A stretch of 64,000 bases of DNA, from positions 1,708,332 to 1,772,331 of the forward strand of contig NC_009253.1 in assembly GCF_000016165.1 (NCBI RefSeq), in the 5' to 3' direction. Under the pieces are notes generated by a model. That model was not told the DNA's origin and did no database searches. It saw nothing but the letters and a program-made list of their open reading frames with translations. Source of the stretch: Desulforamulus reducens MI-1. GTDB lineage: Bacteria; Bacillota; Desulfotomaculia; Desulfotomaculales; Desulfotomaculaceae. Positions 4,457 to 60,512 of the stretch are shown here, piece by piece (position 1 is the first letter of the stretch; every line of letters begins with the position of its first letter). Position numbers and translations under genes: made by a program.

Positions 4457-5200
4457 TTATTCACCCAGTACTACCCCTAAAATCCTTTCCCTTATCTGAA
4501 AAAAATCGGGCGAAAGGGGATTACGGGGATAGTTCAGTGACACCGGAACATCTTCAACTATTTTTCCTCCTTCAAAAATCACCACCCTTTGGCCAAGAAA
4601 GACAGCCTCGTCCACATCGTGGGTAACAAAAATAATGGTTTTTTTCTGCAGCAGAAAGATTTCCACCAACTCTGCTTGCAGGTTTTTCCGGGTGAAGGCA
4701 TCCAAGGCTCCCAGGGGTTCGTCCATCAGGATGATATCCGGGTCGTAACAGAGGGTTCTTCCCAGGGAAGTCCGTTGGGCCATGCCACCGGAGATCTGTG
4801 CGGGATAAGCATCTTTGAATTTTTTTAGACCCAGCATATCTAAGAAGTGCGAAACGGTCCGGCTCACCCGCAAAGGGTCCTTTTCTTTAAATAGGGCAAA
4901 TGCCATGTTTTGTTCCACCGTTAACCAGGGCATTAGCCTGGGCTCTTGAAAAACGATGCTAATTCTTTCCTTTCCTACTGCCCGTTCCTTTTTAGGCGAT
5001 AAAAAGGAAATTTCACCCTGGGTGGCCTGTTCCAAACCACAAAGCAATCGAAGCAGGGTGGTTTTTCCGGAACCGCTTTTTCCTACTAGGGTTACAAAAC
5101 TACCATCTTGGATGGTTAAATTAATGTTAGAGAGGGCTTGTACTTCTTGGCTGTGAATTGTATATGTTTTACAAAGTCCCTTGATGTTAACTCCTGCCAT
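4457..5200 (-). CDS. ABC transporter ATP-binding protein (SsuB/TauB/NrtD type)
   Basis: 247 residues with Walker A GKSGSGKTT (about 39-47), Q-loop in IVFQEPRLMPWL, signature ISGGMAQRTSLGR, Walker B ILMDEPLGALD and switch histidine FVTHDVDEA. The PRLMPWLTV segment is typical of the nitrate/sulfonate/taurine group. The start codon overlaps the end of the permease gene by 14 nt, which implies coupled translation. It energises the permease encoded next to it. Confidence 0.87.
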   Translation of the reverse strand: MAGVNIKGLCKTYTIHSQEVQALSNINLTIQDGSFVTLVGKSGSGKTTLLRLLCGLEQATQGEISFLSPKKERAVGKERISIVFQEPRLMPWLTVEQNMAFALFKEKDPLRVSRTVSHFLDMLGLKKFKDAYPAQISGGMAQRTSLGRTLCYDPDIILMDEPLGALDAFTRKNLQAELVEIFLLQKKTIIFVTHDVDEAVFLGQRVVIFEGGKIVEDVPVSLNYPRNPLSPDFFQIRERILGVVLGE

Positions 5201-5951
5201 AGGATACCCTCTTTCCAGCCCATGGAATTAGATGGTTTGTTAGTTTAAAGAAACAGTAATCGATTATGTAACCAAACAATCCGATGGTGAGAATCCCCAC
5301 AATAATAATGTCTGGGCGGGAAAGCTGTTCGGCGTCAATAATCATATAACCAATGCCCGAAGATGCAGCTATCAATTCGGCCCCGATAAGAGAGCGCCAG
5401 CTATAGCCTAATCCCAGTCGGAATCCCACAATGATGGAGGGGAGAGCAGCAGGTATGACGATTCGTAAAAACTTGTCCCGGGCAGTGAAGCCAAATACAT
5501 CGCCAACCTCCAACAGTTGTTTATTGCAGCCTAAGATACCGTTGAGGGTGTTGAGGAAGACCGGAAAAAAAGTAGCCAAAATTATGACCGCCAGCTTGGA
5601 AGTTTCTCCAATGCCAAACCAGAGAATGAGAATCGGGATGCAGGAAATGGGTGGAATGTGTCCTAGAAAATCCAGTACTGGGTCTATGTAGGGTGCCAGT
5701 CTTTGGTTTATGCCAACCAGAATCGCCAGAGGGAAGGCAAATAAAACGGTCAAAAGAAAGCCAGCAAAGACCCGATACAGGCTAATGGTAATATGTTTAA
5801 GCAATATCCCGCTGGCAGTTAGATCAAGGGCTGTTTGTAAAACTTTAGTAGGCGGAGGGATGATGTACTGGTTGATAGATTCCGTGGCTGAGCCAATTAA
5901 CCATAGAATAAGAATGACAAATGGTATGACAAAACCTTTCAGATAATGCAT
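5187..5951 (-). CDS. ABC transporter permease (SsuC/TauC type)
   Basis: About 254 residues from ATG 5951, which follows a GGGGG site at a five-base distance; an in-frame TTG 12 bases upstream is less likely. It has about six membrane segments and the BPD_transp_1 EAA loop near GDVFGFTARDKFLRIVIPAALPSI. It forms the channel of the importer with the neighbouring ATPase and lipoprotein. First gene of the three-gene set; the exporter-like gene upstream on the same strand may be co-transcribed. Confidence 0.85.
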   Translation of the reverse strand: MHYLKGFVIPFVILILWLIGSATESINQYIIPPPTKVLQTALDLTASGILLKHITISLYRVFAGFLLTVLFAFPLAILVGINQRLAPYIDPVLDFLGHIPPISCIPILILWFGIGETSKLAVIILATFFPVFLNTLNGILGCNKQLLEVGDVFGFTARDKFLRIVIPAALPSIIVGFRLGLGYSWRSLIGAELIAASSGIGYMIIDAEQLSRPDIIIVGILTIGLFGYIIDYCFFKLTNHLIPWAGKRVSYGRS

Positions 5952-6018
5952 AAATACCCCCAAAAAGAAAGACCTGTAACAGGTCGTGCTAAAATACGTT
6001 TTTTATTACCCGAATATA

Positions 6019-6774
6019 TTACTCCACATCAGGTTGAGGCTTGGGTGTCTTTAAATATTTAACCCCTGTCCGAATCATCACGATAGCAAATATAATTCGC
6101 AAAGCTCCTTCAGATAAAATATGGGCCAGAGACCCCCCCAGAAATGTTCCTATCAGGATACCTGGGATCAATCCCGGCAAAATACTGGTGCTGACATTCC
6201 CTAAACGCCAGTGGGTATAAGCGCCAACAATTCCCACAGGTACCATGGCCAAGAGAGAACAGCCCTGGGCGGTGTACTGGGTGAAGCCAATGAGCAGCAC
6301 CATGGAAGGAACCATGATTGTACCGCCACCGACTCCCATCATCCCGGAAAGGAAGCCTGTGAATCCCCCGGCCAGTAAAAGGATCAAGATTTTTACCCAG
6401 CCCATGGCAGGCTCGGCAACGTGGGGCAGATACGGTTTAATAAGTAGGAGCAGGGTGACCACAATTAAAAATCCACCGAAAGATTTTTTAAGCTTCCATT
6501 CCGGCAGGGCATTGGCAAATCGTGCCCCGGCCCTAGCGGTAAATATTGCGGTGGACGCCAAAAGGGCAGAGGCCACTATATCCACCGAGCCATTTAAAGC
6601 ATAAGTGACAGCCCCGGATAGTCCAGTAAAAACAAGTGCCACAAGACTTGTGCCGTGGGCCTGATGCTGACTCATTTTCAAAATACCGACCATTAGGGGG
6701 ATCATGATCACGCCGCCGCCTAAGCCCACAAGCCCTCCGAAAAAACCTGCTGCCAATCCGATTAATAAATTCAT
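6019..6774 (-). CDS. TSUP family membrane protein (TauE/SafE sulfite exporter-like)
   Basis: 251 residues, seven to eight membrane segments, with the duplicated glycine-rich helix hairpin of the TauE/SafE family: GGLVGLGGGVIMIPLM near the N-terminus and SGMMGVGGGTIMVPSM in the second half. ATG 6774 follows GGGAGGT. Family members export sulfite, sulfoacetate or related organosulfur anions. Its position just upstream of the sulfonate-type ABC genes on the same strand suggests a shared role in organosulfur handling, which is inference. Confidence 0.82.
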   Translation of the reverse strand: MNLLIGLAAGFFGGLVGLGGGVIMIPLMVGILKMSQHQAHGTSLVALVFTGLSGAVTYALNGSVDIVASALLASTAIFTARAGARFANALPEWKLKKSFGGFLIVVTLLLLIKPYLPHVAEPAMGWVKILILLLAGGFTGFLSGMMGVGGGTIMVPSMVLLIGFTQYTAQGCSLLAMVPVGIVGAYTHWRLGNVSTSILPGLIPGILIGTFLGGSLAHILSEGALRIIFAIVMIRTGVKYLKTPKPQPDVE

Positions 6775-15293: not shown

Positions 15294-15377
15294 AGCCCTG
15301 ACGAATGGGTGAAAAAACCAAAGTATGAGTGGTTGTAAAAATTGTAAAAGCGGGAGGCATTATAAAGGAACCAAAAG

Positions 15378-15405
15378 AGGTTGAAAGTTAATTCCTTCAA
15401 CCTCA
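15378..15405 (-). terminator. Terminator of the phosphatase/hydrogenase operon
   Basis: GAGGTTGAA pairs with TTCAACCTC around ten bases, followed by TTTTGG on the minus strand, 30 bases past the phosphatase stop. Confidence 0.8.
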
Positions 15406-15435: not shown

Positions 15436-16587
15436 TTAAAAATATTCTTCCGTGATCTCTTTGCCGATTTCCCGCAGGCTGTTAATTAAGTCCCGAATGA
15501 CGTGGTGTTTATAGGCATAGATGGCTGGCACGTCGTTGCAATCCAGGGCATCGTTTTGAGCCCTACCCACCATAATGTGTATACTGTCGGCGCTTCTTAA
15601 TAAGGTTGCCAGACGGCTGGCACCGTCTTTACCGTCCTTTAAGTCCTTGAGCTTAGTGTTTCCTTTTATATGCTCTAAGGTTTGTACCAGAGTAACAGCA
15701 CCTTCAGTAATAAGGTCGATGCCTGGCAGCATACCCACTGGGGGAATGCCCTCCACCACCGAGGAAATGTCCACAAACACTTTTCTTCCCAATACCCGAC
15801 CCACGATTTCACCGGTGGTGCCGCCGCAGATGACCTTGGCTCCAGGGGATTCCATCAGCTTCCGTACCACCCTACGATCATCTTCCCTTTGCTTGGGAGG
15901 GCCGATTAACAGGGTTACATGCACTGGGTGCCGTACCTTAACTGCTACAACGGTTACATCATCGCCGGGCTGTTCTCCATACAGGGAGTTGCAGAGACCA
16001 ACGATTTCCTCGGACCATTCAGAGGCAGTTTTGTCCGGGGCATAGGAGTCTTCGATAAACCGGCTCATACGATCCCAGCCCCAATTTACATTCATTTGCC
16101 CATTGGTGCCTGCATTGAGAACTCCGTCGGAAGTGAGTACCAACCAGTCATGGTCGTCCACCTCAAAGTCATATTCGCGGATTTTTTTACCGGCAATGGT
16201 CCGCTCTTCCCGCCGGGGGGTAAACAGGGTATTTTGGTTTCCTATGAATGCCCCGGGGTTATCATATTCCACCAGATGTAGTTTACCGTTGTTCTGTACC
16301 TGTAAAATGGAGAAGGTACTGTAGGCGGCATGAATGGTTTTATCAATGGGCAGAGTCTTGGCCACGGTATCAATTACTTCATCAATATTGCCACCCATGC
16401 GGAGCATGGTGGCGGCGGTTTTGGTGGTCAGCCGGGAGAGGATATTTGCCTTAACCCCACTGCCCAGTCCATCAGACAGTACCACCAGATCCGCCTGAGT
16501 TGTTCGTACAATCTCCACACTGTCCCCACAAAGTTCCTCGCCATATTTTTTTAGTTGAGCCACACCGATATCTAAATAAATTTTCAT
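15436..16587 (-). CDS. SpoIIE/PP2C-type protein phosphatase
   Basis: 383 residues from ATG 16587, eight bases from AGAGGAG. The first 225 residues form a PP2C (SpoIIE) domain: metal-binding Asp in VVLSDGLGSGVKAN, a second in LVLTSDGVLNAG, and the last in GEQPGDDVTVVAVKV. The C-terminal 150 residues (VTLLIGPPKQ; AKVICGGTTGEIVGR) are a separate domain that accompanies these phosphatases in clostridia. Expected to dephosphorylate Ser/Thr on a regulatory partner. It lies 15 bases behind the H-cluster protein gene, so the pair is an operon. In group C [FeFe] hydrogenase clusters such phosphatases are standard neighbours and are thought to pass on a hydrogen signal. Confidence 0.83.
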   Translation of the reverse strand: MKIYLDIGVAQLKKYGEELCGDSVEIVRTTQADLVVLSDGLGSGVKANILSRLTTKTAATMLRMGGNIDEVIDTVAKTLPIDKTIHAAYSTFSILQVQNNGKLHLVEYDNPGAFIGNQNTLFTPRREERTIAGKKIREYDFEVDDHDWLVLTSDGVLNAGTNGQMNVNWGWDRMSRFIEDSYAPDKTASEWSEEIVGLCNSLYGEQPGDDVTVVAVKVRHPVHVTLLIGPPKQREDDRRVVRKLMESPGAKVICGGTTGEIVGRVLGRKVFVDISSVVEGIPPVGMLPGIDLITEGAVTLVQTLEHIKGNTKLKDLKDGKDGASRLATLLRSADSIHIMVGRAQNDALDCNDVPAIYAYKHHVIRDLINSLREIGKEITEEYF

Positions 16588-16602
16588 TGGCGGCACTCCT
16601 CT

Positions 16603-18324
16603 CTAAAGGGTTTCTTGCCGCATTAATTTAATTAATTTACCCAGTTGAACCTTGGTCTCCGCCGTTGCTTCGCCCAGCAGACCCGCTATTTCCTGGGCCA
16701 CCATCATTTGTTTTTCAATTACATCCTGGGCCTGTTGGATGGTTTGACTTTTAATTAATTCGTACTGTTCCCGCTGTTTCTTTTCGGAAGTTATGTTAAT
16801 AAAGATTCCCACCACCGCATCGGTTCCTTTGACTGGGAAAATAATCTCATGGGTGACAATCCCCAGTAAGGGATAGGTCTCGGTGGTATTAATCATTTCC
16901 CCGCTTTGAATCACCTTCAAGAAATTAGTGGCAGGCATTAGAGTGAGAAGTCTTTGTCCCACAACCTCGGAAGCAGAACACTGAAAGAGTGCCTCTGCCG
17001 CTGGATTGATCTCTAAAATATCCAGATTTTTACCCACCACGATGATGGCATTGGGCATGGCCGAAATGACCCGATTTGACATGGATTCTGCCCGTTTTCT
17101 CATATAGGGAATACACATTTCTACTTCGGCCTTACCCTGATAAACAGCCACAGCCTTGTCACGGCAGGAGTTGTAGCCACAATTTCCGCAGTTAAACTCC
17201 TGGGCTGCTGATAATTTGCCGGTTCTGGCCAAAATACCTTGAATTTCAGCTTCACTTGGATAGGGTTGCTCCACCTTACGGTTGACAAAATCTCTTTTTA
17301 AAGGAATCTCAGGCAGTTTATAATCATCAATTACGAAAACACATTCACCGGACGAGTTGTAATACTCCAGAAGTTTGCGTTGTCGCATAAAAAGACTTTC
17401 TTCCAGACAGAGGGAAAGGGGACCATTAATGCAGCCACCTTTACAGGCCCAGAGTTCCATTAACTTAGGAGGGTTTGTAATCTGTCCTTGACTAAGGTGT
17501 TTAACAAATTCGATGCAACTGTCCAAACCAGATATGGTCAGAAAATCTTCCCCGGCTTGCCGCAGTTCTTCGGCTACGGCCCAAATGACACCGCCTTCCA
17601 CGGGATAAATGCGGTTTTGGCAAGGGGAAAAGCTGTCAAAGGCCGAAGGGGAAAGATCTTCCGTCAAGGGTACCGAGTCCTGAATCCAATCCCATAGCTC
17701 GTTAAAACCCAGGAAATAATCAATGGTATCCTTCAGGCCCAGGAGTTGAGCTTCATCCCGTTTGGCTGCACAGGGGCCTATGTAGACCACTTTGGCATAG
17801 GGATTGAGGGATTTTATAATTCTTCCCTGGGCGATCATAGGTGAAACGATGGGAGCCAGCAGGGTAATTAATTCGGGATAATACCGCTCAATTAAATTAA
17901 CAATCACCGGACAGTAACTAATCAGGCGGGGGGTTTCAAAACCCATGTTTAGATACTCTTGTGTAACCATACCAGCACCAATGGAGGTTTCTTGAACTTC
18001 AATAAAACCCAATTTCTTTAATAGGGTTGGCAATAAATCCGGTTTTTTCAGGGGAAGGGCACTGATGAAGGAAGCGGCCACCACGGCAATGACGGGGGTT
18101 CCTTCGGCCAAGAGTTGTTTTACTTCTTTGAGATCGGAAACGGGCCTTTTGGCCCTTTGGGGGCAAGCAAGAATACACTGGCCGCAATGGACACAAAGTT
18201 CATCTATGACCTGGGCATGAAATCTGCCCTGATGACCGGTATTCATCCTGATGGCCTTTAAGTTGCAGATCCTTACACAACGGTAGCAATCACGACATTT
18301 TGCTCCAGTATAGATTAACCCCAT
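16603..18324 (-). CDS. Sensory-type (group C) [FeFe]-hydrogenase H-cluster protein with PAS domain
   Basis: 573 residues. Two N-terminal [4Fe-4S] sets: CRDCYRCVRIC (from about residue 9) and CVHCGQCILACP. The H-cluster region has L1 reduced to SYCPV (instead of TSCCPxW), L2 GPCAAKRDE and L3 WACKGGCINGP, so all four cluster cysteines are kept although the motifs deviate from catalytic enzymes. A second Fe-S domain follows (CGNCGYNSC...C, about 375-400), then a PAS domain (about 415-520; MPNAIIVVGKNLDILEINPA) and a C-terminal helical region. Known group C proteins are low-activity hydrogen sensors. Here the partner is the PP2C-type phosphatase downstream. No small regulatory site was seen in front. 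Confidence 0.83.
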   Translation of the reverse strand: MGLIYTGAKCRDCYRCVRICNLKAIRMNTGHQGRFHAQVIDELCVHCGQCILACPQRAKRPVSDLKEVKQLLAEGTPVIAVVAASFISALPLKKPDLLPTLLKKLGFIEVQETSIGAGMVTQEYLNMGFETPRLISYCPVIVNLIERYYPELITLLAPIVSPMIAQGRIIKSLNPYAKVVYIGPCAAKRDEAQLLGLKDTIDYFLGFNELWDWIQDSVPLTEDLSPSAFDSFSPCQNRIYPVEGGVIWAVAEELRQAGEDFLTISGLDSCIEFVKHLSQGQITNPPKLMELWACKGGCINGPLSLCLEESLFMRQRKLLEYYNSSGECVFVIDDYKLPEIPLKRDFVNRKVEQPYPSEAEIQGILARTGKLSAAQEFNCGNCGYNSCRDKAVAVYQGKAEVEMCIPYMRKRAESMSNRVISAMPNAIIVVGKNLDILEINPAAEALFQCSASEVVGQRLLTLMPATNFLKVIQSGEMINTTETYPLLGIVTHEIIFPVKGTDAVVGIFINITSEKKQREQYELIKSQTIQQAQDVIEKQMMVAQEIAGLLGEATAETKVQLGKLIKLMRQETL

Positions 18325-18411: not shown

Positions 18412-18479
18412 TTGTGGTTGAGATCAAAGGGTGGTATCCTAACACTAGGTAAACGAAATGTGTGTAATTAGTTTACCTA
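18412..18479 (+). promoter_or_regulatory. Promoter and operator-like inverted repeat of the efflux operon
   Basis: TTGTGG (18412-18417), a 17-base spacer and TATCCT (18435-18440) form a plausible sigma-A promoter. Just downstream TAGGTAAAC (18446-18454) is repeated exactly inverted at 18471-18479, a site placed over the transcription start. The last gene of the operon encodes a TetR-type repressor, the obvious candidate to bind here. Confidence 0.55.
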
Positions 18480-21322: not shown

Positions 21323-22424
21323 AATTTTATCCATCTTATATAAGGAATTTTTACAAATGAAAAGAGATCGCTTAACCATTGGGTTAATTTTCATGCTTCC
21401 CCTGGTGCAGCTGCTGCTTTTTGGCTATGCTATCCAAACTGAAGTAAAACATATACCCACAGTGGTTTTTGATCAATCCTTATCTCCGGAGAGTCGTGAA
21501 CTGCTGGATTCCTTCAAGGTATCAGGTTACTTTGAGGTTACAGAGATGGCGGGAAGCTATACAGAAGTTACCGACATGATCGATAAAGGTACTGTTAAGG
21601 TGGGGGTGATTTTCCCGCCTGATTTTGCTGGGAATGTGAGAAGGGGAGATACCGCCCAGGTCCAAGTACTAGTAGATGCCACAGATAGTATGGTTTCTAA
21701 TTCTGCCATCGCCACTGCTAATGCCATTGGACTAATTAAATCCCAGAATGTTATTATTGAAAAGGTTGGTCATTATCAACCTCCCTACGATGTGCGAGTT
21801 CGGCCTTGGTATAATCCAGATGGAATTACGGCCTATTACATGGTACCGGCTATTTTGGGAATCATTGTAACAATGACAATGGTAATGATGACATCAATGG
21901 GGATTGTTCGTGAGCGGGAGCGGGGAACTCTGGAGCAGCTTATTGTTACCCCCATTAAATCCTATGAATTAATGATTGGAAAGGTTATTCCATACGTTGC
22001 CCTGGGTTATCTGCAAATTACGGTAGCATTGCTGGTGGGAGTGATTATCTTTGATGTTCCCATCCGGGGCAGCTTACTGCAACTGTATCTTTTAACACTG
22101 TTCTTTATTACTGCGTCCTTGGGTATTGGTGTACTGATATCTAACATCGCCAAGTCACAAATGCAAGCCATGCAAATGTCATTTTTCGTTCTATTGCCTA
22201 GTATTTTGCTATCGGGATTTATGTTTCCAAGGGATGCTATGCCTGTTGTGATAAAATATATAAGTAACCTGATCCCTCTAACTTATTATTTAACCATTAT
22301 TCGGGGGATTGTCCTGAAGGGGATAGGATTTTCTTATCTGGTACCCCAAGTCATAGCATTGTTTACTTTCACAGTAGTATTGATGACTATTAGTATCTTA
22401 AAGTTTAAGAAGAAGATTGTCTAA
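21315..22424 (+). CDS. ABC-2 type permease (YbhS/YbhR-like)
   Basis: 369 residues from ATG 21315 behind GGAGGGG. One N-terminal membrane segment, a large extracytoplasmic domain (about 40-170) and five C-terminal segments, including the conserved RERERGTLEQLIVTPIKSYE loop. This is the ABC-2 exporter layout. Enteric operons carry two such permeases (YbhS and YbhR); only one is present, so it may work as a homodimer. Substrates in the family are cationic drugs and dyes. Confidence 0.85.
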   Translation: MSRILSILYKEFLQMKRDRLTIGLIFMLPLVQLLLFGYAIQTEVKHIPTVVFDQSLSPESRELLDSFKVSGYFEVTEMAGSYTEVTDMIDKGTVKVGVIFPPDFAGNVRRGDTAQVQVLVDATDSMVSNSAIATANAIGLIKSQNVIIEKVGHYQPPYDVRVRPWYNPDGITAYYMVPAILGIIVTMTMVMMTSMGIVRERERGTLEQLIVTPIKSYELMIGKVIPYVALGYLQITVALLVGVIIFDVPIRGSLLQLYLLTLFFITASLGIGVLISNIAKSQMQAMQMSFFVLLPSILLSGFMFPRDAMPVVIKYISNLIPLTYYLTIIRGIVLKGIGFSYLVPQVIALFTFTVVLMTISILKFKKKIV

Positions 22425-22443
22425 CCTTGAAGGTGGTGATTCA

Positions 22444-23022
22444 ATGGAGCCGCGTGAGAAAATTATTGTACTTTTTAGGGAGTTGGCGGAGGAAAGGGGT
22501 TTTTACGGAGTTACGGTGGATGAATTGGCAGCTCGTAATAATATGAGTAAACGAACAATCTATCGCTATTTTAAAAGCAAGGAAGAAATCGTCGAGGGAG
22601 TTATGCGGCAGTTTATGCTGGAGACCGAGAAAGAGGTTTTTCAGGTTTTGCAAAACCATGGCACTCCTATTGAGAGAATCACCAATTTTGTTAAATTGAT
22701 CTCGGAAAGACTAAGGATTTTGTCGCCAAGAGTCTTGAGTGAACTGCAGCGGCACTATCCAGATATTTGGGAACAGGTGGAGCAATTTCGTGCAGAAAAG
22801 ATAAAGTACCTAATTGAAATGATCGTGGAAGGCAGTAAGGAGGGCTACTTTAAGGAAATTAACCCCACCATCGTTACAGCCTCTCTTTTGTCAACTGTCC
22901 GCAGTGTGGTGAATCCAACCTTTGTTGTGGAAAATAACCTTACAATAGAAGAAGCATTTAAAACAGTTATGCACACATTCTTATATGGTATTGTGGCTGA
23001 TCAAAAACTCCCTGCTATATAA
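22444..23022 (+). CDS. TetR-family transcriptional regulator
   Basis: 192 residues from ATG 22444, behind AAGGTGGTG; earlier in-frame codons lie inside the permease gene. The N-terminal helix-turn-helix reads VTVDELAARNNMSKRTIYRYF followed by KSKEEIVEG, the TetR signature. The C-terminal ligand domain is not specific. As the last gene of the HlyD-ABC operon it likely represses it through the inverted repeat at 18446-18479 and is released by an exported compound. That link is inference. Confidence 0.85.
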   Translation: MEPREKIIVLFRELAEERGFYGVTVDELAARNNMSKRTIYRYFKSKEEIVEGVMRQFMLETEKEVFQVLQNHGTPIERITNFVKLISERLRILSPRVLSELQRHYPDIWEQVEQFRAEKIKYLIEMIVEGSKEGYFKEINPTIVTASLLSTVRSVVNPTFVVENNLTIEEAFKTVMHTFLYGIVADQKLPAI

Positions 23023-39344: not shown

Positions 39345-39600
39345 CATACGGGAGAGTGGCAGTAAATGCCCGCCGAAGGAGTTATACTCTCAGGTGCTTT
39401 GATTAAAAGTGGAACCGTAAGTGGACAGGACTCTGGAGAGACCCATAATTGGGCGCCGAAGGTGCAAACAGCTTATAAGAGCTGTAAATCTCTCAGGCAA
39501 AAGGACAGAGGGTAGAAGAAAAAAGCAAACCGTTTTGGACGGCATGCTTTTGCTTCCTATTCTGTCTCTCTGGAGTCAAATCAATAAGATTTGACTCTTT
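39345..39600 (+). promoter_or_regulatory. Tandem glycine riboswitch with terminator
   Basis: Two consecutive glycine aptamers. The first (about 39345-39400) has ACGGGAGAG, the GCCGAAGGAG core and ACTCTCAGGT. The second (about 39428-39515) has CTCTGGAGAGACC, GGGCGCCGAAGGTGCAAAC and ATCTCTCAGGCAAAAGGACAG. A long helix formed by GGACAGAGGGTAGAAG with CTTCCTATTCTGTC and a terminator GAGTCAAATC/GATTTGACTC + TTTTGTAG (39573-39604) make the expression platform. It controls the Na+/amino-acid symporter starting 28 bases later, which supports glycine as a substrate. Confidence 0.92.
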
Positions 39601-43924: not shown

Positions 43925-44175
43925 TAAATGCATATGATGCTATGAAAAGGAAAAGTAAGGCAGTATGGTTGCCCCAGAGAGGAAGTGCCGTGGCTGAAAG
44001 CACTTCCCACTAGCTGTCTGAAAGACCACCTTGGAGCAGTTTGCAGAATTTTAGTAAGCAAACCGGTCTGATACCGATATCATCCTTTGAGGTGGGAGCA
44101 ATGTCTCCAACCAGGGTGGAACCGCGGCAACAACCCCGTCCCTGAGGTTATCAGGGATGGGGTTTTTATTTTTGA
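43925..44175 (+). promoter_or_regulatory. T-box riboswitch, threonine-specific
   Basis: Stem I contains the AGAGAG bulge (about 43977-43983) and the specifier loop GAAAGACCACC, where ACC (44025-44027) is a threonine codon. The T-box sequence GGGTGGAACCGCGG lies at 44115-44128. The terminator CCCCGTCCCTGAGG.../TCAGGGATGGGG + TTTTT (about 44138-44170) is the alternative fold. Uncharged tRNA-Thr should open expression of thrS. Confidence 0.92.
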
Positions 44176-46134: not shown

Positions 46135-46310
46135 TTGACTGCTCAGGCAAACCATGGTACAATTACTCCTGTTGAACTTAATACTATATTAAAGTAGAAG
46201 CATCCCGCTTCTCACCTTACAACCGAGGTTCGTAGGGTCTTATTACACAATATGTTTTTAAAATTGTGTCTATTAGCGGGTGTTTATCACCCGCTTTTTA
46301 TTTTTTGTTT
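46135..46310 (+). promoter_or_regulatory. Promoter and L20-type attenuator leader of infC-rpmI-rplT
   Basis: TTGACT (46135-46140), a 17-base spacer and TACAAT (46158-46163) make a strong promoter. The leader contains further stems and ends in a terminator AGCGGGTG/CACCCGCT (46275-46295) followed by a T-rich run. In Bacillus the same operon is attenuated by L20 binding a mimic of its rRNA site; the place and layout fit that leader. Confidence 0.75.
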
Positions 46311-50639: not shown

Positions 50640-50654
50640 TAGTGCTACTGCCAT

Positions 50655-50912
50655 GATGGGGAGAAGTACGTTGATTGTTTCTTCGCAGGGAGAGAGGGTC
50701 GAGACTGGAAATCCTCTTAAGAAAAGTCATCGGAAAGTTCGCCCTTGAGCTGCGGTCTGAAAGTATATACATACGAGTAGGTTTCGCCGGTTCTTCTGCC
50801 GTTATCAGAAGTGGATAAGTGTTTTTATCCTCTGAGTGGTTCTTTGTAGTAGAACAATCTGGGTGGTACCACGGAGATACTCCGTCCCTATATTTAGGGG
50901 CGGTTTTTTATT
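50655..50912 (+). promoter_or_regulatory. T-box riboswitch, phenylalanine-specific
   Basis: Stem I carries GGAGAGAGGGTCG and the specifier loop GGAAAGTTCGCC with TTC (50738-50740), a phenylalanine codon. The T-box GGGTGGTACCACGG is at 50861-50874. The terminator CCGTCCCTA/TAGGGGCGG plus TTTTTTAT ends the leader 30 bases before pheS. Confidence 0.92.
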
Positions 50913-56489: not shown

Positions 56490-57670
56490 GTCAAAACACA
56501 AAATAATTCCCTTTGGGAATTGAAACAACAAGTCTAATACCAGTAGCGAGTATCCATTCTTCCTCGTCAAAACACAAAATAATTCCCTTTGGGAATTGAA
56601 ACAAAATATACATAAGTAAATTGGCTGTGGTTAGTTCTTCGTCAAAACACAAAATAATTCCCTTTGGGAATTGAAACTGAAATATGGATTCAATCTTTAG
56701 AAGGTGGCACTATATCCGTCAAAACACAAAATAATTCCCTTTGGGAATTGAAACAGCTGCACTGTTATAAGATTCACTGATTGTAGCTGATTGTCAAAAC
56801 ACAAAATAATTCCCTTTGGGAATTGAAACGTATGCTTCTTTATATTCTTAATAACTGTAAATGGTCTAGTCAAAACACAAAATAATTCCCTTTGGGAATT
56901 GAAACGCATTATTATATTTGCTTGTTTCTTCCGTTAACCACTTTGTCAAAACACAAAATAATTCCCTTTGGGAATTGAAACACAAATAAAAAAGGTCAGA
57001 TGACTTCTGTTACATTAACGTCAAAACACAAAATAATTCCCTTTGGGAATTGAAACTGAAAGTGTCAGTATGCATATTCAAGCAATTCAAAAAGTCAAAA
57101 CACAAAATAATTCCCTTTGGGAATTGAAACATTTTAAAATTATTCATTTTTACCTCCTATTCTGTGACTGGTGTCAAAACACAAAATAATTCCCTTTGGG
57201 AATTGAAACGGTATCCACCTTCGGCAGGTGAAACAAAAAAGTGGGCAAGGCCCAGTCAAAACACAAAATAATTCCCTTTGGGAATTGAAACGTATAGCAG
57301 AAGTTGGAGTATTACAGCCGATACTGGTAAAGTCAAAACACAAAATAATTCCCTTTGGGAATTGAAACTTGAGGAATGATGGCAGTAACACTGCTTTCTA
57401 TGCCTGCGTCAAAACACAAAATAATTCCCTTTGGGAATTGAAACTCCTTACCCCTTTAGCAGATATACAGTCATCTTCTTCAGTCAAAACACAAAATAAT
57501 TCCCTTTGGGAATTGAAACATTACACTATTCTACCTATGTAATTAATTTCCTTTACGTCAAAACACAAAATAATTCCCTTTGGGAATTGAAACTATATTC
57601 AACACACCATCCTTTTACCTATCTCGGCAATATGTCAAAACACAAAATAATTCCCTTTGGGAATTGAAAC
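56490..57670 (+). CRISPR. CRISPR array 1 (16 repeats)
   Basis: Sixteen identical 37-bp repeats, starting at 56490, 56566, 56641, 56718, 56793, 56869, 56945, 57020, 57094, 57173, 57255, 57332, 57408, 57483, 57557 and 57634. Each begins GTCAAAACACAAAAT and ends GGGAATTGAAAC, with the palindrome ATTCCCTTTGGGAAT inside. The 15 spacers are 36-45 nt; a sixteenth spacer-like stretch follows the last repeat before the IS110 insertion. The ATTGAAAC end provides the usual 8-nt crRNA 5' handle, so transcription is on plus. No two spacers in this part are alike. Confidence 0.97.
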
Positions 57671-59807: not shown

Positions 59808-60380
59808 GTCAAAACACAAAATAATTCCCTTTGGGAATTGAAACAAAAACCGAGTCTTCGAGAATTAACCTACCAACACAGTTTGTCAAAACACAAAATA
59901 ATTCCCTTTGGGAATTGAAACTAAATTTCTTTTATGTTCCTTCCATCTGCCTAATATATCAATAGTCAAAACACAAAATAATTCCCTTTGGGAATTGAAA
60001 CCTTGATTTATTATCTTCAGATTCACTATCTGCTCCAGCATGTCAAAACACAAAATAATTCCCTTTGGGAATTGAAACTATCCTAGTGTTTCATTTAAGC
60101 ATTCAATTTCTTTTGCAAGTCAAAACACAAAATAATTCCCTTTGGGAATTGAAACTTTTCTTCTGCTGTTTTTAATGTCTGTCCTGAAAGTTGTTGTCAA
60201 AACACAAAATAATTCCCTTTGGGAATTGAAACAAAAACCGAGTCTTCGAGAATTAACCTACCAACACAGTTTGTCAAAACACAAAATAATTCCCTTTGGG
60301 AATTGAACCCTTGATTTATTATCTTCAGATTCACTATCTGCTCCAGCATGTCAAAACACAAAATAATTCCCTTTGGGAAT
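59808..60380 (+). CRISPR. CRISPR array 2 (8 repeats, trailer end)
   Basis: Repeats identical to array 1 start at 59808, 59885, 59965, 60042, 60119, 60196, 60273 and 60350. The seventh has one substitution near its end (GAACC for GAAAC) and the eighth lacks its last six bases, which marks the trailer. Spacers 1 (59845-59884) and 3 (60002-60041) recur exactly as spacers 6 (60233-60272) and 7 (60310-60349), so the order is 1-2-3-4-5-1-3. This is the continuation of array 1 beyond the IS110 insertion. Confidence 0.97.
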
Positions 60381-60512
60381 ATTTGGATGATAGTAATACA
60401 AATTTGTTTTAAGGGCGTGAACACAATGGTTACGCTCTTTTTTTTTGTTGAATAAATACATCCTGCCAGGGTAATACTTAATAAATACATACTTTGACCT
60501 TGGGTGAAGTCA
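60381..60512 (+). other. Gap between CRISPR trailer and cas4-cas1
   Basis: Short non-coding stretch with a GCG-TGAACACAATGGTTACGC hairpin near 60413-60437 followed by a T-run, possibly a terminator for the array transcript. Confidence 0.45.

Follow-up and report, generated by a model that had tools for sequence, protein, structure and literature searches.

What would a two-gene unit that joins an H-cluster/PAS protein to a PP2C-type phosphatase sense, and on what would it act, with neither a kinase nor a catalytic hydrogenase beside it? This question is raised by a 64,000-nucleotide stretch of the Desulforamulus reducens MI-1 genome (a single contig of 3,608,104 bp), NC_009253.1 positions 1,708,332 to 1,772,331. 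We call this stretch the window, and coordinates refer to it unless the genome is stated. A preliminary description, based on the letters of the window, had proposed a hydrogen-sensing unit of this kind. Both open reading frames lie on the minus strand where that description had put them, and a Pfam scan of neighboring proteins in the window found, as it had said, no adjacent kinase or catalytic hydrogenase. We consider, with a probability of about 0.6, that the unit is a cytoplasmic sensor of H2, or of an H2-linked redox state, that belongs to [FeFe]-hydrogenase group C3 and switches its partner phosphatase. The sensor-phosphatase pair is of a known kind; its variant features are a Tyr/Trp pair in the H-cluster pocket and its distance from hydrogenase genes.

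The sensor and its class

The sensor protein has Pfam matches to Fe_hyd_lg_C (E = 2.5e-40), FeS (6.8e-10), Fer4_7 (1.6e-08) and PAS (8e-08). The preliminary description had noted that the H-cluster cysteines are retained, and all four (C138, C185, C294 and C298) are indeed invariant in an alignment of 26 sequences. Also invariant there are the cysteines of the C-terminal Cx2Cx4Cx16C motif (C379, C382, C387 and C404) and C10, C13, C16, C20, C44, C50 and C54 of the N-terminal dicluster domain, whose C47 is present in 16 of the 26. A structure model, with a mean predicted local distance difference test (pLDDT) score of 81, has as its best match in the PDB chain 8a6t_A, from HydABC of T. kivui (E = 5.8e-20); the extent of the PAS domain was taken from the secondary structure of the model. 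The end of the C-terminal helix holds a stretch conserved in the alignment, IEKQM..AQEIAGLLGE.TAET, and this helix probably makes contact with the phosphatase.

In a tree of 85 H-domains, made by a quick method that flagged long branches at the group B pair and where group A joins the rest, group A is split from the sensor with support of 99, and two group B-like proteins of the D. reducens genome form a branch of their own (support 83). The preliminary description would have been contradicted by a place among the catalytic group A enzymes or outside the [FeFe] hydrogenases; the sensor stands outside group A and apart from the group B-like proteins. Sensors of the pair type and a second sensor type group together (99), and the 48 pair rows require two changes on this tree. 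The PAS domain and the Cx2Cx4Cx16C motif are named for group C (PMC8163306). The tree, these two features and the adjoining Ser/Thr phosphatase support the sensory group C reading, with the PAS domain, which follows the H-domain, favoring group C over group D. By the description in HydDB, whose table lists "C3, phosphatase-linked (putative)" with a Ser/Thr phosphatase neighbor (PMC5037454), the sensor fits group C3. The members so listed share with our pair a group C-type H-domain, the linked phosphatase gene and a proposed role in H2 sensing, whereas the pair in the window lies away from any hydrogenase operon and carries the Tyr/Trp combination described below.

Residues around the H-cluster

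The positions C299, M353 and M497, in CpI numbering, are all altered in the sensor, where they correspond to Y137, G183 and W292. Among the 26 aligned sequences, the C299 position is Ser in 11, Ala in 7, Tyr in 5 and Cys in 3, and the M497 position is Leu in 14, Trp in 5, Met in 5 and Asn in 2. The lineage of D. reducens is represented here by nine Desulforamulus loci and by one from a same-family metagenome-assembled genome (MAG) of another genus (L039, in genome G059), which is counted within the Desulforamulus rows. Tyr at C299 occurs together with Trp at M497 in 9/9 lineage rows versus 0/39 others, and the tenth lineage locus, L046, whose frame is broken, has both residues as well. As far as these alignments can tell, the combination is a trait of the Desulforamulus lineage and not of group C. 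The preliminary description had read the L1 and L3 motifs as the group C pattern; the motifs are present, but their "SYC" and "W" elements are specific to the lineage (10/10 versus 0/39). A survey of sensory enzymes found Ala at the C299 position in about 43%, Cys in 17%, and Pro and Ser in about 10% each (PMC10055695). The Tyr/Trp variants are natural probes of the H-cluster pocket.

The characterized proteins TmHydS and TamHydS have the same ligands as our sensor, altered C299, M353 and M497 positions and a Cx2Cx4Cx16C cluster. TmHydS differs in having Ala131 and Ser267 at the C299 and M497 positions, and TamHydS differs in having no PAS domain. In those TmHydS and TamHydS texts in which words were counted, the word phosphatase is absent.

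Genomic context in relatives

A search at E <= 1e-60 found a sensor-type match in 47 of 113 genomes of the class, a number that includes paralogous sensors (G023 and G041, for example, have only paralogues). We scored 63 sensor loci by script, 10 from the lineage and 53 others, with L040, L043 and L044 removed as duplicates. A phosphatase gene lies within two genes downstream of the sensor gene at 60 of the 63, and the gap is -25 to +36 bp in 54 of these. Of the 3 remaining loci, L065 was missed through labeling, because the best match there is a C-terminal piece of a phosphatase that is in fact present; another, L050, lies at a contig end, and only L053 (sensor at L053:3865-5562) truly has no phosphatase gene after the sensor gene.

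A catalytic-type [FeFe] gene is found near the sensor at 31 of the 53 non-lineage loci (24 with HydA and HydB, 7 with a group B enzyme), by a strict count that excludes L080, where a protein other than HydB gave the 41-bit match, and L062, whose HydB is at a contig end. A small [2Fe-2S] thioredoxin-like ferredoxin is close by in 26 of the 53, and a Rex gene in 13. Neither a catalytic [FeFe] gene nor an HfsA-like ferredoxin nor a Rex gene was found near any of the 10 lineage loci searched, one of which (L042) is on a short contig without an upstream flank. Absence of a neighboring hydrogenase, noted in the preliminary description, is common in the lineage, but it is not general among such pairs. 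In the three nearest non-lineage relatives (the f7 set: L045, L073 and L074), the order of genes is HydC-HydB-HydA-sensor-phosphatase. Because these relatives are linked to HydCBA and the lineage loci are not, the pair probably left a HydABC operon within the Desulforamulus lineage, although we infer the direction of this move. The group B (monomeric) hydrogenases, of 471 to 504 residues, are near the pairs L201, L205, L206, L208, L209, L210 and L212. We considered whether these proteins are HydA2-like and rejected this idea, as all 7 exceed the threshold set for the group B model.

The phosphatase and its C-terminal domain

The phosphatase matches the Pfam family SpoIIE (E = 2.4e-12), and its sole NCBIfam match is also SpoIIE (E = 1.3e-14, far under the cut-off of that model). 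Residues D25, D42, D157, D212 and D213 are invariant in an alignment of 25 sequences, and we take these aspartates to be metal-binding residues. The structure model (pLDDT 87) has the PPM fold, and its matches, mostly over residues 4 to 224, include 3pu9_A (Z = 25.7) and SpoIIE 5ucg_A (Z = 24.6), with SpoIIE and RsbU-like chains among the best.

The extra C-terminal domain that the preliminary description had pointed out is real, spans about residues 223 to 386 and is conserved among relatives. Its conserved motifs, GPP, CGGTT, EG and G.A.N, are located just past strands in the model, a position that suggests a ligand pocket. A profile comparison with the PDB gave, up to an E value of 10, a sole and unconvincing match (E = 0.14), and each Pfam family matched at most 1 of the 23 members (best E = 0.085); fold searches with the whole phosphatase model were filled by residues 4 to 224 and hardly covered the C-terminal part, whose fold may be a known one. 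A profile built from 23 sequences of the domain matches 46 of 113 genomes of the class and 122 of 398 of the phylum. These matches are mostly inside frames of approximately 380 to 410 residues, and the exceptions are short frames, several of them broken or at contig ends, and a few longer ones. At L194, L195 and L196, a phosphatase with this C-terminal domain adjoins a small [2Fe-2S] ferredoxin, and no sensor gene is in the stretch; the gene beside this phosphatase is presumably that of a glutamine synthetase, as read by eye.

A free-standing copy of the domain beside HydA

All 8 other Desulforamulus genomes encode the C-terminal domain also as a gene of its own, of 152 to 159 residues. It is located directly after HydA and ahead of a second HydC-HydB-HydA set, with a small open reading frame in between in 4 of the 8; in one of the 8, L170, the hydrogenase frames are broken. 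The proportion of nonsynonymous differences (pN) is below that of synonymous differences (pS) in 28/28 pairs, and the ratio of the corresponding rates (dN/dS) is 0.09 to 0.13 in the 8 of 28 pairs that are unsaturated; judged by these ratios, the free-standing domain is under purifying selection. It forms one clade with a long stem (1.47). As to whether it arose inside the lineage, the approximately unbiased (AU) test of its grouping with the lineage phosphatases gave a borderline p-AU of 0.046, with six long-branch loci left out beforehand. In the D. reducens genome, the profile has one match only, and tblastn of the corresponding 19-kb region gave no trace of the free-standing domain.

The corresponding HydA of D. 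reducens falls into one clade (support 98, 12 rows) with HydA proteins of sensor loci in the 85-H-domain tree. A ferredoxin-like tail is present in 20 of 21 sensor-locus HydA proteins (53.9 to 106.3 bits). In Desulforamulus, the first HydA still has this tail in 8 of 8 examined, at weak scores (19.6 to 35.4 bits). The tail is found in 0/4 HydA proteins outside such loci and, in the other Desulforamulus genomes, in 0/7 second HydA copies; broken-frame HydA pieces of L170 (<500 residues) were left out of this survey. No title or abstract opening that we retrieved concerned the free-standing domain or the Tyr/Trp pair, in searches that were aimed at neither and covered few subscription papers, which is weak evidence that both are new. 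The free-standing domain within HydABC operons is a concrete candidate for the missing link of H2 signal output.

Proposed mechanism and alternative explanations

In the mechanism that we propose, H2 would react at the H-cluster of the sensor, and the change would reach the C-terminal helix by way of the FeS and PAS domains. This helix would bind the phosphatase and shift its dimer or switch helices, much like the coiled-coil linkers of RsbU, whose activation is coil-driven (PMC12143880). The switch could work in either direction, turning the phosphatase on or off. The phosphatase would dephosphorylate a Ser/Thr protein, with its C-terminal domain serving as a ligand-binding or docking module, and the Desulforamulus pair, being outside the HydABC operon, would act in trans. 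The H-cluster can be built in this organism, because its genome carries HydG, HydE and HydF, contiguous at genome positions 2354836-2358619 and all over their cut-offs.

Comparable pairs have been described in other organisms. In the Thermoanaerobacterium hfsABCD operon (PMC5707799, PMC11837493), HfsB is an [FeFe] protein with a PAS domain and HfsC, next in order, is a serine phosphatase homologue, a likeness drawn from their description, whereas neither an HfsA-like ferredoxin nor an HfsD-like hydrogenase adjoins the pair in the window. Deletion of hfsA or hfsB raises ethanol and adhE, and deletion of hfsB raises hydrogenase activity (PMC5707799); mutations in the hyd operon were found in 80% of the sequenced strains evolved from hfsB deletions (PMC11837493). 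Sensor deletion in thermophiles shifts fermentation to ethanol. HydS of Ruminococcus albus also combines an H-cluster and PAS protein with a phosphatase subunit and has a proposed role in H2 feedback, although its transcript also covers a group A1 hydrogenase and an alcohol/aldehyde dehydrogenase; the cluster with this group C sensor was down 111-fold in co-culture (PMC6776011). A 2026 paper on TamHydS calls finding interaction partners critical.

Because of the Thermoanaerobacterium deletion data and the free-standing domain beside HydA, we favor an output on HydABC or on its regulation in this group, and the gene arrangements hint that the partner is electron-bifurcating HydABC or something that binds it. 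A more elaborate proposal, which we regard as doubtful as a whole, is that the C-terminal domain is a new module that docks on HydABC or reads its state, through which C3 systems would tune HydABC post-translationally. Desulforamulus would then have a split system, in which the sensor and phosphatase are encoded elsewhere, a paralogous docking domain has become a gene of its own beside HydA, the sensor pocket has been rebuilt with Tyr and Trp, and the ferredoxin-like tail of HydA has diverged.

Several observations weigh against H2 sensing with an output on HydABC. The D. reducens genome has no free-standing domain, and none of the 10 lineage loci is near a hydrogenase, so that evidence from linkage comes only from relatives. 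Among these relatives the hydrogenase partner varies: at 7 of 53 loci it is a group B enzyme and HydABC is missing, and at 22 of 53 the stretch is devoid of catalytic-type [FeFe] genes of >400 residues, some of these contigs being short. With Tyr and Trp next to the [2Fe] site, insertion of the cofactor or turnover could be hampered. In T. saccharolyticum, deletion of hfsC left ethanol at the wild-type level with flux to lactate, unlike deletion of the sensor, and also slightly lowered hfsD (PMC5707799); because of this difference, a simple line in which the sensor activates the phosphatase is unsupported in that organism. We also considered AdhE as a conserved output of the genus and rejected it. 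Of 9 Desulforamulus genomes, just 2 have a near-full-length AdhE match, which in D. reducens has a stop counted within it; a third frame, of 895 residues, spans both halves.

The group B neighbors and the hfsC phenotype lower our confidence in the mechanism and in docking on HydABC, and they raise the standing of an alternative in which the sensor reads redox state, not H2. Here the ferredoxin or NADH pool would be sensed via the FeS clusters or a PAS ligand, and the H-cluster domain would be a structural relic with its pocket filled by Tyr and Trp. Only in the lineage are both positions changed to large aromatic residues, and the pair has no neighboring hydrogenase. However, the four H-cluster ligands are invariant and the maturases are present, and TmHydS incorporates the [2Fe] cluster even with Ala and Ser in place of C299 and M497 (PMC10055695). 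We rate this alternative as unlikely. That the protein works as a catalytic hydrogenase of low activity, with the phosphatase as an accessory, is highly improbable in our estimation: TmHydS and TamHydS do retain some turnover (PMC10055695, PMC8163306), but our protein has lost the proton-relay Cys and is linked to a PAS domain and a phosphatase, and four group A enzymes are encoded elsewhere in the genome.

The SpoIIE-like matches of the phosphatase, on the NCBIfam side below the cut-off, could also point to a classical partner switch, in which the phosphatase acts on a STAS anti-anti-sigma factor against an RsbW/SpoIIAB-type kinase, and H2 controls a sigma factor. SpoIIE, RsbU and RsbP (PMC12143880) share with our protein the PPM phosphatase fold and possibly coil-driven switching, whereas in the window the sensor and phosphatase are separate proteins, the phosphatase has its extra C-terminal domain, and no STAS antagonist or RsbW-type kinase is beside it. 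In searches with PF01740 and PF13581 (not PF13466), the genome showed one clear small STAS/RsbW-type pair, at genome 1175004-1175757, which resembles SpoIIAA-SpoIIAB in size and gene order; the two further STAS matches correspond to frames of 584 and 601 residues. The sole candidate target would accordingly be SpoIIAA, in sporulation, and we rejected it, as this spoIIA-like pair is distant from the window genes. Moreover, the sensor-phosphatase pair also occurs in MAGs labeled Omnitrophota, Planctomycetota and Bacteroidota (labels that may err), groups in which, to our knowledge, sporulation genes are not expected. From these searches a dedicated sigma-factor switch as output is unlikely, and partner switching in general seems to us improbable. 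Two Hanks-type kinases are encoded in the genome, neither linked to the window pair: one lies approximately 2.8 kb away from a SpoIIE match, weak and under the cut-off, which is possibly its PP2C phosphatase (genome 1869793-1873616), and the other, of 284 residues (genome 842688), has no sensor gene in its 3.7-kb locus. The genome has 8 H-cluster-domain matches. Four are of group A and 2 are group B-like, one of these scoring above the model's cut-off; the remaining 2 are the window sensor and another sensor-like protein. This last protein (L087:6343-8073; genome 2514000-2528000) is followed by a PAS histidine kinase (4682-6073), which resembles the C1 arrangement.

Coordinates and other elements

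Table 1. Features of the sensor-phosphatase unit in the window (aa, amino acids)
Feature	Position	Strand	Details
Sensor gene (HydS/HfsB-like)	16603..18324	-	573 aa; 2x[4Fe-4S], H-cluster domain, FeS, PAS, helix
N-terminal 4Fe-4S dicluster domain	18151..18303	-	aa 8-58; Pfam and alignment
Compact H-cluster domain, Fe_hyd_lg_C	17419..18096	-	aa 77-302 (~226 residues); E 2.5e-40, profile 2-245 of 245
L1 motif ISYCPV	17905..17922	-	aa 135-140; ligand C138; proton-relay position C299 = Tyr137
L2 motif GPCAAK	17761..17778	-	aa 183-188; ligand C185; M353 position = Gly183
L3 motif ELWACKGGCINGP	17419..17457	-	aa 290-302; ligands C294, C298; M497 position = Trp292
C-terminal FeS domain, Cx2Cx4Cx16C	17107..17196	-	C379/C382/C387/C404; PF04060, E 6.8e-10
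PAS domain	16795..17073	-	about aa 418-510; PF00989, 32.7 bits (cut-off 22.6), matched aa 418-467
C-terminal helix of sensor	16675..16791	-	aa 512-550; alignment and model; pLDDT drops along helix
PP2C/SpoIIE-type phosphatase gene (HfsC-like)	15436..16596	-	386 aa from GTG 16596; 383 aa from ATG 16587
Phosphatase domain	15931..16596	-	SpoIIE match, alignment, PPM/PP2C fold of model
Extra C-terminal domain of phosphatase	15439..15930	-	aa 223-386, ~160 aa; conserved in relatives; strands and helices alternate in model
Terminator-like hairpin, 3' of two-gene unit	15377..15404	-	11 pairs, TTTT tail

The likelier of the two phosphatase starts is the ATG, because AGAGGAG is located 8 nucleotides upstream and 8 of 24 aligned relatives start exactly there. 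The gap to the sensor gene is then 15 bp, as against 6 bp with the GTG start. The window contains two terminator-like sites, versus a mean of 4.4 in shuffled sequence, so the hairpin is weak by count.

A palindrome, TAGGTAAAC-N16-GTTTACCTA, occupies 18446-18479 in the gap that separates the sensor gene from the divergent HlyD/ABC efflux genes; a TetR-type gene (22417-23022) comes after the efflux genes. We considered and rejected this palindrome as an operator of the sensor gene: among 10 loci, the exact 9-bp repeat occurs there only in L067 and L041. By eye, an imperfect palindrome-like sequence is present at other loci with efflux genes and not at loci without them, and the palindrome is probably the operator of the efflux operon.

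In some relatives, a sensor-type H-cluster and FeS domain is part of a larger protein. It is fused to a sigma-54 activator (AAA+ and Fis-type helix-turn-helix) at L096:4797-7058, L097:4780-6978, L098:5623-7887 and L099:5439-7643, as judged by Pfam for L097 to L099 and only by kinship to L097 for L096. Such a fusion would be a one-protein H2-responsive transcription activator, and at L098 its gene is followed by HydC-HydB-HydA; a literature search gave nothing related by title. At L100:5107-7560, the H-cluster and FeS domain is fused to GGDEF and HD_5, and this protein is possibly an H2-controlled cyclic-di-GMP enzyme.

Elsewhere, the window includes two stretches of CRISPR-DR63 repeats (56490-57670 and 59808-60389) and several RNA elements, namely a glycine riboswitch (39423-39518), T-boxes (43933-44146 and 50644-50892) and an L20 leader (46186-46308).

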